Of a stretch of 48,292 nucleotides of DNA, positions 16,488-19,845 are shown in pieces. This DNA is from an uncultured Verrucomicrobiales bacterium (GTDB taxonomy: Bacteria; Verrucomicrobiota; Verrucomicrobiia; Verrucomicrobiales; DEV007): the NCBI GenBank assembly GCA_937891465.1, contig CALAHF010000212.1:1-48292 (forward strand), written 5' to 3'. Every line of letters starts with the position of its first letter. Within the stretch, counting starts at the first letter, position 1. Under the pieces are notes generated by a model, which was not told where the DNA came from, did not search any database, and saw nothing but the letters and a program-made list of their open reading frames with translations. Both the position numbers and the translations under genes were made by a program.

Positions 16488-17738
16488 ATGAAGAAAACTC
16501 ATGTTCTGGTTCTAATCGTTTTATCCGTGGCACTTTCGGCCGTCGGACAGGACATCAATTATTCCGACCTGTTTAGTCCGGTCCATGGGTACCACACCCA
16601 GGAACTCAACGATCCGTTCACTCGGTTGATAGCGGATGTCAAATCCGGGAAACGCGAACTCGACAACAGCAGTTCAAAGGCATTCATCGCCAGCATGCTG
16701 GAACATCTCGACGTTCCAGCCAGTTCCCAATTGCTGATTTTCTCCCGGACCAGCCTTCAAACGCGGAGAATCTCGGGGAGCAATCCCCGGGCTGTGTATT
16801 TCAACGAGAACGTCTACGTCGGGTATATTCCCGGCGGAAGTGTCGAAATCATTTCGCTCGATCCCGAGCTCGGAGGAATCTTCCATATCTTCGACAGACC
16901 GAAAAACGACGCAAAACCGGTGTTCGAACGAGGAGGAGGGCTCTGCGTGGATTGTCACTCTGTCGCCAAGACTCGGCGCGTTCCCGGGCTCTCGACTCGG
17001 TCGGTGATTCCCGGTGCCAACTGGGGCAAACTCGTGGCATTCAGCGACAACCAGATGGGCCATCAGATTCCTCTCAGCGAGCGTTTTGGCGGCTGGCATG
17101 TGACTGGGGATTCGGGGATCACCGACCACAAGGGTAACCTGACCGGCCAGAGAGTCGGTGGAAAGATCGTCACCGAGGTGATCGAGCCAGGCACTGAATT
17201 TGATTGGTCTGCGTATCTCACCGAGACCAGTGATATCCTTCCGCACCTGATCCTCGAGCATCAGGCAGGATTCATGAACCTGGTTTTGGAAGCCACCTAC
17301 CGGGCGCGGACCTATCAGCATATCGGCAAAGGGGAAATCAAGCCGGAACATGTTGCGGTGCTTCACGGCCTTGCCGATGAACTCGTTCGCTACCTGCTGT
17401 TTGCCGACGAAGCGAAATTTCCGGCAGGTGGAATCCGAGTCGACCCGCAGTATCGCGAGGATTTTCTCGCTGATCGCAAGGAGGCATCGAACGGGATCTC
17501 GCTGAAGGATCTTGACCTGGAAACTCGGATTTTCAAACACCCTTGCAGTTACCTGATCCACAGCGACGTCTTCCAGGCGACTTCCGATCTCTTCAAGCAG
17601 CGCGTTTATCAGGTTCTCGGCGAAGCGCTCAGTATCGAAAAACCAAATCCGGACTTTGCCTATCTTTCCGTCACAGAAAAGGAGGCGATCCGCGGCATTC
17701 TCCGGGAAACGCTCAGCGATTTGCCGGGCGGCTGGTGA
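16488..17738 (+). CDS. Exported single-heme c-type cytochrome-like protein
   Basis: This 416-residue protein opens with a cleavable signal peptide (KKTHVLVLIVLSVALSAVG, then QDIN). It has one heme-attachment motif, CVDCH at 153-157. The preceding part, FSRTSLQTRRISGSNPRAVY at about 85-104 with NVYVGYIPGG, and the following RVPGLSTRSV and RFGGWHVTGDSG match a widespread but unnamed family of Planctomycete/Verrucomicrobia proteins, as I recall it. It is likely periplasmic and in electron transfer or catalysis. It is the first gene of a cassette with the thioredoxin-fold and PQQ-type genes. The opposite strand also has a long open frame, which is a composition artefact. Confidence 0.75.
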   Translation: MKKTHVLVLIVLSVALSAVGQDINYSDLFSPVHGYHTQELNDPFTRLIADVKSGKRELDNSSSKAFIASMLEHLDVPASSQLLIFSRTSLQTRRISGSNPRAVYFNENVYVGYIPGGSVEIISLDPELGGIFHIFDRPKNDAKPVFERGGGLCVDCHSVAKTRRVPGLSTRSVIPGANWGKLVAFSDNQMGHQIPLSERFGGWHVTGDSGITDHKGNLTGQRVGGKIVTEVIEPGTEFDWSAYLTETSDILPHLILEHQAGFMNLVLEATYRARTYQHIGKGEIKPEHVAVLHGLADELVRYLLFADEAKFPAGGIRVDPQYREDFLADRKEASNGISLKDLDLETRIFKHPCSYLIHSDVFQATSDLFKQRVYQVLGEALSIEKPNPDFAYLSVTEKEAIRGILRETLSDLPGGW

Positions 17739-17849
17739 ACGACCTGGCAGCCTGGAAAAAAGGTCAGGGAACTTCCGGCATCTACTGGATCCCCGTGTTG
17801 CGTATCAATTCGAGCTTGATCCTGCAAGGATTCTGACGACTATGGGAGG

Positions 17850-18374
17850 ATGAGAATCGCTTTGGCCCTAGTATCCCTGATCGGAGCGGCGTCGCTTCAC
17901 GCCGCAGAACCCCTGATTGTTCCTGATTGCGTCATATGGTTCGAAGACCTCGAGAATCTCGACGCGATCAAAAAGGAAGCAGCTAAAGAGAACAAGGCTG
18001 TCTCTTTTCTCCTGATGGAACCGGGCTCCACGTGAGGCCCTTCCAACGCCGCCAGTTTGACGGCAATCAAAGCAATTAAAGATGACTCAATAATCGTGTT
18101 CATCGATGGCTCGAACCTCCACCTCACACCGAAATCGGTTGTGAAGGCCATCGAGGATGCTCCCTTAGTGGCCACTCCGATCGTGGCCGTTTTCGATTCT
18201 GCCATTGAGAAGAACCTCGGCGTCCTTGGATACGGTGACATCCGAAAACGCGACGGTTTAAAGAATCTAAAGGCAAAAATCGCTGAGTTGCGCGGCACTG
18301 ATGATAAAGTGACCAGCAGCCCCGAGGCCGGCAATAAGCAAATCGCCAAGCTGACCAGGGAAAAAACGGAATAA
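17850..18374 (+). CDS. Candidate selenoprotein: exported thioredoxin-fold protein with UGA at the active-site position
   Basis: The frame from ATG 17850 gives a signal peptide (MRIALALVSLIGAASLHAAE) and a thioredoxin-like lead-in (AIKKEAAKENKAVSFLLMEP). It meets TGA at 18033-18035 and then continues in the same frame for 112 codons to a stop at 18372. Reading TGA as selenocysteine gives GST-U-GPSN at residue 62, aligned with the CGPC box of thioredoxins, with Ser replacing the resolving Cys. Downstream come IIVFIDGSN and VATPIVAVFDS, the latter a cis-Pro strand as in thioredoxins, then LGVLGYGD. The alternatives are a Cys-to-stop mutation (pseudogene) or a sequence error. A GGGAGG directly abuts the ATG, an unusual spacing, so a start a few codons downstream is possible. 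Confidence 0.55.
18048..18064 (+). promoter_or_regulatory. bSECIS-like hairpin directly after the in-frame UGA
   Basis: Twelve bases after the UGA, GCCG (18048-18051) pairs with CGGC (18061-18064). A C-A mismatch follows, then two more pairs close a GUU loop. Counting U of UGA as 1, the loop G and U fall at 23 and 24, the same numbering I recall for the SelB-contacted bases of the E. coli fdhF element. There is no clear bulged U17. The hairpin is short, so this is suggestive only. Confidence 0.4.
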
Positions 18375-18519: not shown

Positions 18520-19845
18520 ATGAAGATGGAGATCTGTCAGATTGTCTCGCCTCAAATCAACCCGACTAATGTGAAAGCGGATCGAGCATTCGCAACAGTG
18601 GGGCTCTTTGTGGTGGCGCTTGCTTTCTTGACTGCAGTGAGAACTGCCGGCGCAGCCAAACCTGCTGAGAATCGGGAAGAGCGGCGGGTTGCCTCCGAGG
18701 CTGATCGACTGAAGAACTGGCCCAACTTGTTGGGGCCAGCGGCCAATGTTTCCCCAGCCACCGGCCTGTTGAAGGATTGGAACGGCGAGACAGGCGAAGG
18801 AATCAAGTGGAAGACCCGGATTCCGCTGCCCGGCTACAGCTCGCCGATTTATTGGGATGGAAAACTCTACCTAACCGGTGCCAACGCATCGACCCGGGTC
18901 GTCTATTGCATCGATTCCCAAAGTGGTGAGATCATTTGGGAGAGACACGTGAAGAATATTCCCGGATCCCCCAAGAGTGTTCGTATCAGTGAGGGCGCTG
19001 GATACGCGTCGTCGACAATGGCGACAGACGGTGTTCGGGTTTTCGCGAGCTTTGCGAATGGCGATCTTGCCGCCCTCGATCTCGAGGGAAGCCCGATCTG
19101 GTCGAAGAATCTCGGGAAACCGGAAAATCTCTACGGCCACGCTTCGTCGCTGGTAACTCATGGCGACAACCTGTTGATTCAGTATGATCAGGAGAATCTC
19201 GGATATGTCGCGGCTTTGGATGTGGCGACCGGAAACGAACGCTGGAAGACGGAACGGGATTTCCGCTCTTCTTGGTCGATGCCGCTGGTCGCTATGATCG
19301 GCGATCACGAGGAGGTTATTCTCGCGGCCGAACCGACCGTGGTTTCCTACGATCTGAAATCCGGCAAAGAACTCTGGCGGCTCGATTGTCTCAAATACGG
19401 CGAGGTGACCGCAGTCCCGGTCTACGCTGACGGGCTTGTCTACGTTTCTGCGGATTCTGCCAATCTCAGCGCGATCGACGTGAAGACTCAAAAGATTGTG
19501 TGGGAAAGCAGCTTCTCCAAGCCCGGGGTCTCCACCCCCCTGCTTCACGAAGGACTGCTCTACTGTGGGGCCGACGACGGTGCCTTTGCCTGTTTCGATG
19601 CGAAAACCGGAGAAGAACTCTGGACCGAATACGCGGATGACGGTTTTTATGCCTCCCCGATCCTGGCGGACGGCAGAGTCCACCTGCTGGACCGCAGCGG
19701 GACGATGCACATTCTCAAACCTGGCCGCGAATTGAAGATTCTCGGGCAGTCCCACCTCGGAGAGGAAGCTTCCTGCACCCCGGCAGTGGTCGGTGACAGC
19801 TTCTACATTCGCGGACTGAAACACCTTTTCCGAATCGGTCCCTGA
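18520..19845 (+). CDS. Exported PQQ-type beta-propeller protein
   Basis: This 441-residue protein has a signal-peptide-like helix at about 27-45 (TVGLFVVALAFLTAVRTAGA). Repeated blades of the PQQ/quinoprotein class follow: YCIDSQSGEIIWERHVKN, ALDVATGNERWKTER, SYDLKSGKELWRLD, AIDVKTQKIVWESSF and CFDAKTGEELWTEYA. Each has the DxxTGxxxW pattern. Catalytic residues of true PQQ dehydrogenases are not evident, so a scaffold or outer-membrane/assembly type role is equally possible. It lies 145 bp behind the thioredoxin-fold gene in the same direction. The gap holds only a very short possible frame at about 18459. Confidence 0.8.
   Translation: MKMEICQIVSPQINPTNVKADRAFATVGLFVVALAFLTAVRTAGAAKPAENREERRVASEADRLKNWPNLLGPAANVSPATGLLKDWNGETGEGIKWKTRIPLPGYSSPIYWDGKLYLTGANASTRVVYCIDSQSGEIIWERHVKNIPGSPKSVRISEGAGYASSTMATDGVRVFASFANGDLAALDLEGSPIWSKNLGKPENLYGHASSLVTHGDNLLIQYDQENLGYVAALDVATGNERWKTERDFRSSWSMPLVAMIGDHEEVILAAEPTVVSYDLKSGKELWRLDCLKYGEVTAVPVYADGLVYVSADSANLSAIDVKTQKIVWESSFSKPGVSTPLLHEGLLYCGADDGAFACFDAKTGEELWTEYADDGFYASPILADGRVHLLDRSGTMHILKPGRELKILGQSHLGEEASCTPAVVGDSFYIRGLKHLFRIGP

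Follow-up and report, generated by a model that had tools for sequence, protein, structure and literature searches.

An in-frame UGA codon in the window, by which we mean the whole stretch of 48,292 nucleotides analysed here from an uncultured Verrucomicrobiales bacterium, raises the question whether a thioredoxin-like gene of this organism encodes selenocysteine (Sec) at its active site or has been broken by a Cys-to-stop mutation. The first of these possibilities, a Sec-containing protein with the motif U-G-P-S, had been put forward in a sequence-only reading, with the second as its rival.

Reading frame and predicted fold

The frame, which runs from ATG to TAA, contains a single TGA at codon 62 of 174, after which 112 codons remain (Table 1). 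Coordinates and frame are as proposed in the sequence-only reading: the UGA occupies the site of the first cysteine of the thioredoxin CxxC motif, in the context GSTUGPSNAAS, and the segment VATPIVAVFD, which had been taken for the cis-Pro strand, contributes Pro110 directly ahead of a strand, as in thioredoxins. Because a signal peptide is predicted, the UGPS protein is probably periplasmic.

Table 1. Features of the selenoprotein locus and its surroundings (window coordinates)
Feature	Position	Strand	Remarks
UGPS selenoprotein CDS	17850..18374	+	174 aa, predicted signal peptide and thioredoxin fold; UGA at residue 62 almost certainly read as Sec
Sec-UGA codon, residue 62	18033..18035	+	first position of the CxxC-equivalent motif, U-G-P-S
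Predicted signal peptide MRIALALVSLIGAASLHAA, residues 1-19	17850..17906	+	putative cleavage site; N-termini of homologues alike
cis-Pro equivalent P110	18177..18179	+	invariant across the family (alignment, structure model); presumed cis geometry
SECIS-like stem-loop	18048..18064	+	18048-18053 pairs with 18059-18064; loop AGUUU
Ser69 codon AGT	18054..18056	+	used in all 20 aligned genes; forms the SECIS loop
Upstream neighbour, 416-aa secreted protein	16488..17738	+	one CxxCH haem motif in the translated sequence
Downstream neighbour, PQQ-type beta-propeller protein	18520..19845	+	same location in five relatives
Conserved 14-base non-coding motif TTCGAGCTTGATCC	17809..17822	+	~30-40 bases before the start; 6/6 syntenic loci

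An AlphaFold2 model built from 20 family members (pLDDT 81, pTM 0.74) shows its elements in thioredoxin order, with predicted strands at residues 28-30, 50-55, 80-85, 111-115 and 122-126; Sec62 caps a predicted helix at residues 63-76, and Pro110 lies just before strand 111-115. As modelled, the protein would thus have a beta-alpha-beta-alpha-beta-beta-alpha thioredoxin core in which the nucleophile starts helix alpha-1 and the cis-Pro precedes the next strand. The best Foldseek matches are the disulfide isomerase 3fk8 and thioredoxins (E 4.8e-4), and the best VIA-align match is poplar Trx h4 (Z 10.9, rmsd 3.2 over 120 residues).

Conservation of the UGA codon

A search of 96 genomes, consisting of the window's own genome and relatives, returned 22 matches from 12 genomes, all of which carry TGA at residue 62; among these UGA-carrying matches, identity to the window protein ranges from 21 to 76%. 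Within its own genome, searched with a query in which the TGA was translated as Cys, the window gene is accompanied by two paralogues, on contigs C54 (motif UGPS) and C165 (UGPC), and in both of them a single in-frame TGA occupies that residue. A search for the UGA pattern in named genomes gave 21 stretches, all of them from Verrucomicrobiota (Verrucomicrobiales, Akkermansiaceae, Roseibacillus). The coding sequence behind the UGA is conserved as well: when the window gene is compared with its nearest relatives, dN/dS after the TGA is ~0.3-0.36, which indicates selection on the protein encoded by the downstream half.

A conserved stem-loop downstream of the UGA codon

The hairpin noticed earlier in the window sequence, with its onset 12 nt past the UGA and G and U at loop positions 23 and 24 (18055-18056), is exactly where it had been described, and it proved to be conserved with covariation across the family, in which the GU of the loop is invariant. 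With the UGA numbered 1-3, positions 16-21 pair with positions 27-32; in the window clade this stem has one C-A mismatch. In the family alignment 87.9% of the cells of the stem are paired, compared with 16-58% for slid versions, compensatory double changes are found in four of the six stem pairs, and none of 500 shuffles matched the pairing or covariation score of the stem. Since protein constraint might mimic stem conservation, every gene was also recoded synonymously 2000 times. The real family has a mean of 5.27 of 6 pairs, against 4.08 +/- 0.15 (sd; maximum 4.55) in these randomisations, and the GU is present in the loop of 22/22 genes where 2.7 were expected (maximum 9). AGT makes up 13.6% of the other Ser codons in the 20 genes with an invariant AGT at Ser69.

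Covariation per pair is modest, and RNAalifold retains three of the stem pairs only; for a four-pair helix, a control slid by -3 shows nearly equal pairing (83%), but one double change compared with eleven. The hairpin of the window gene on its own is unremarkable, with 13-14% of its synonymous recodings as good, and the weight of the hairpin evidence lies with the family and not with the single gene. This lack of significance in the single gene and the lone TGA in an otherwise open frame would both suit a pseudogene, in which a Cys codon (TGC or TGT) had mutated to, or been misread as, TGA and the rest of the frame was decaying. Such a history is nevertheless highly improbable, given that the same residue is TGA in 21 other genes across the 12 genomes, that purifying selection continues downstream of it and that synteny is conserved; the Cys-to-stop rival is therefore rejected. 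On the strength of the sequence comparisons, the gene is a real selenoprotein gene and not a broken one.

Selenocysteine machinery and cysteine-containing homologues

The sequence-only reading had proposed a search for selA, selB, selC and selD, and all four are present in the window's own genome. The matches to selB (283 bits), selA (496 bits) and selD (278 bits) are above the curated cut-offs, and selC, the gene for tRNA-Sec, is a fragment truncated by the end of contig C113 (51 bits compared with an Rfam gathering score of 47). A first Rfam scan of the genome for tRNA-Sec had given other tRNAs and one odd contig-end match, which a rescan revealed as the truncated tRNA-Sec. The fragment has the anticodon UCA in the loop CUUCAAA, and its sequence is nearly identical to the complete tRNA-SeC (tca) genes found with ARAGORN in the same genus, the same family and other relatives. 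In one relative (contig C73 of G048), a tandem pair of tRNA-Sec genes (L053/L060) lies ~700 bp apart. The SelD encoded on contig C43 of the own genome (L041) is the Cys, not the Sec, form and occurs as a fusion with an NADH-dehydrogenase-like domain. All 12 genomes with the UGA family contain selA, compared with 45 of the 96 genomes overall (hypergeometric 4.6e-5, a value that ignores the relatedness of the genomes).

We extended the comparison at residue 62 by a profile search of 387 genomes from the phylum, keeping the matches that covered the Sec position and leaving out the many that covered the C-terminal SHD1-like domain only. TGA is kept in the nearer homologues, and Cys is found in distant ones only: these have TGC or TGT exactly at the Sec position and belong mostly to genus g19 (motif ATTCPLA), and selA is absent from every g19 genome scanned for it. 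Other distant homologues have Asn, Gln, Asp, Glu, Lys, Gly or Ala at this position. No close Cys orthologue was found in a contig search with the Cys-read alignment. On a tree of 62 rows, 15 of them Cys rows, the Sec state changes about four times, compared with 18.9 times when labels are shuffled, and the window gene is one of 12 Sec genes that form a clade with full support.

These data also bear on a general reassignment or readthrough of UGA, by which the codon would be translated as Trp, Cys or Gly instead of Sec. A frame that is open on either side of the UGA is compatible with this explanation, which is however just as improbable as a pseudogene: of the 13 main genes of the window that were checked, 7 end in TGA as an ordinary stop codon, the genome has a full Sec machinery whose occurrence follows that of the UGA family, and the homologues in genomes lacking selA have Cys, not Trp. 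Supported by the conserved TGA, the Sec machinery, the Cys homologues and the covarying hairpin, the UGA at residue 62 is almost certainly read as selenocysteine.

A proposed one-selenol site without a resolving cysteine

The motif of the window clade is UGPS or UGPA. The earlier suggestion of a one-selenol site, in which the second Cys is replaced by Ser, is borne out by the conservation of this Ser in the clade: the resolving Cys of CxxC or UxxC is missing from the window clade, where Ser or Ala takes its position, and the UGPC paralogues, a sister group, retain the partner Cys. Seven of the 12 aligned UGPS/UGPA genes, six of them complete and one partial (L017), show no Cys at all, and the one Cys of the window protein is located 35 residues before Sec and is not conserved. 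With no conserved Cys and with the resolving position taken by Ser or Ala, the selenol must work without a conserved internal partner.

We propose that SelB and Sec-tRNA-Sec read the UGA as Sec, with the stem-loop, which begins 12 nt further on and has GU in its loop, as their guide; this recoding step is strongly supported by the comparisons described above. The product would adopt a thioredoxin fold in which Sec, as modelled, begins helix alpha-1 and faces the cis-Pro, and the selenolate would act alone, the second motif position being Ser, or Ala in sister genes. Most likely it would attack an oxidised substrate, be it a peroxide, a mixed disulfide or a sulfenylated periplasmic protein, and the resulting selenenic acid or selenylsulfide might be resolved by an outside thiol, by analogy with one-Cys peroxidases and monothiol glutaredoxins. 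Taken as a whole, a periplasmic thioredoxin-fold selenoprotein with UGA recoding through SelB and a stem-loop, and with the chemistry of a lone selenolate, is very probably the best explanation of the locus.

The protein could instead be a Sec protein other than an oxidoreductase, such as a binder of selenide, mercury or another metal, or a chaperone-like relative of thioredoxin. The absence of the resolving Cys is in keeping with this idea, as Ser or Ala at that position could mean a non-catalytic role, for example in metal binding, and in some distant homologues the Sec position is occupied by residues other than Sec and Cys, which implies that the fold is not used for thiol chemistry alone. 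We nevertheless consider such a role rather unlikely, because a UGPC paralogue in the same genome has a complete UxxC motif, Sec is situated at the thioredoxin nucleophile position, and Pro110 is invariant.

The upstream CxxCH protein (73-81% identity; no Pfam match) and the downstream PQQ-type propeller (73-79% identity) are found in the same place in five relatives, in which the order CxxCH protein, selenoprotein, propeller is kept on one strand. That the gene is flanked by those of a haem c protein and a PQQ-type propeller tentatively suggests that the selenoprotein serves periplasmic redox proteins.

Related UGA genes and implications

Several other UGA genes were encountered. On the minus strand of contig C19 of the own genome (71500-73800), a gene for a TlpA/redoxin-like protein (L114) has an in-frame TGA in the context YWGTRUGPCLAAMP and a C-terminal SHD1-like domain, and represents a candidate for a fourth selenoprotein of this genome. 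Two distant relatives from another family of the order (L069 and L072) have an in-frame TGA in PETUVTC and EPTUATC, respectively, and possibly belong to another selenoprotein group. A second UGA gene with the motif UHAC was seen in tandem with a UGPC gene (L030, L107 and L109, and also L028). An SHD1-like domain, which is widespread in the phylum, follows the thioredoxin domain in paralogues (e.g. L002 and L003) and is absent from the window gene.

As standard gene callers truncate such genes at the UGA, the whole family is likely unannotated. The family shows the use of selenium in Verrucomicrobiota, with several paralogues per genome. Its Sec branch, in which the partner Cys is missing, offers a natural test of what a single selenol can achieve on a thioredoxin fold, and the Sec/Cys pairs that track selA make the family a clean system in which to follow how Sec is gained and lost.

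Comparison with known selenoprotein families

The sequence-only reading had named no described selenoprotein of this exact type, and the comparison with published families agrees. No Pfam or NCBIfam model matches the window family at cut-off, including PF00085 and PF13899 at their gathering scores; searches against PHROGs and PDB sequences named no family, and weak matches to FakA-like_C, Cake and SHD1 are apparently due to chance or to the C-terminal SHD1-like domain. A 2026 review (PMC13188914) catalogues 119 prokaryotic selenoprotein families, none of which could be matched to the window family, and in the open-access papers searched we found no selenoprotein study of Verrucomicrobiota. By comparison with Pfam, NCBIfam and the families of the review, we therefore call it a new selenoprotein family of Verrucomicrobiota.

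The bacterial Sec-thioredoxin (PF00085, UxxC) shares with it the thioredoxin fold, the replacement of the nucleophilic Cys by Sec and the cis-Pro strand. In contrast to that protein, the window family has no PF00085 match at E 0.1, the UGPS/UGPA proteins of the window clade have a predicted signal peptide and lack the resolving Cys, and paralogues have an SHD1-like C-terminal domain. Nearest by description is GOS_C (Omp28_seleno, NF045500; PMC2398784), likewise with a Trx-like fold, a UxxC motif and an origin in marine samples, but NF045500 does not match the family loci in seven carrier genomes. The Trx7/PDZ selenoprotein (NF041199) has a Thioredoxin_7-type domain in common with the family, two members of which match PF13899 weakly (E 0.043, below cut-off); its motif is however CxxU according to the 2026 review (PMC13188914), and the window family has no NCBIfam match. 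A lone selenol with Ser three residues on is also found in the peroxiredoxin-like UxxS protein (cd02970) and in rhodanese-like form 1 (PF00581, UxxS), but these belong to other domain families, to neither of which the window family has a Pfam match. The redox-active disulfide proteins 2 Sec.1 and Sec.2 of Brachyspira (PF13192; PMC5330540) are small thioredoxin-domain selenoproteins with paralogues within a genome as well, but they are spirochaete proteins of PF13192 with CxU or UxC motifs. Set beside these systems, the genes described here probably represent a lineage-specific expansion of periplasmic thioredoxin-fold selenoproteins, one branch of which dropped the resolving Cys, and often every Cys, but kept Sec despite large sequence divergence, giving rise to a single-selenol enzyme with partners of its own, namely the haem c protein and the PQQ-type propeller.
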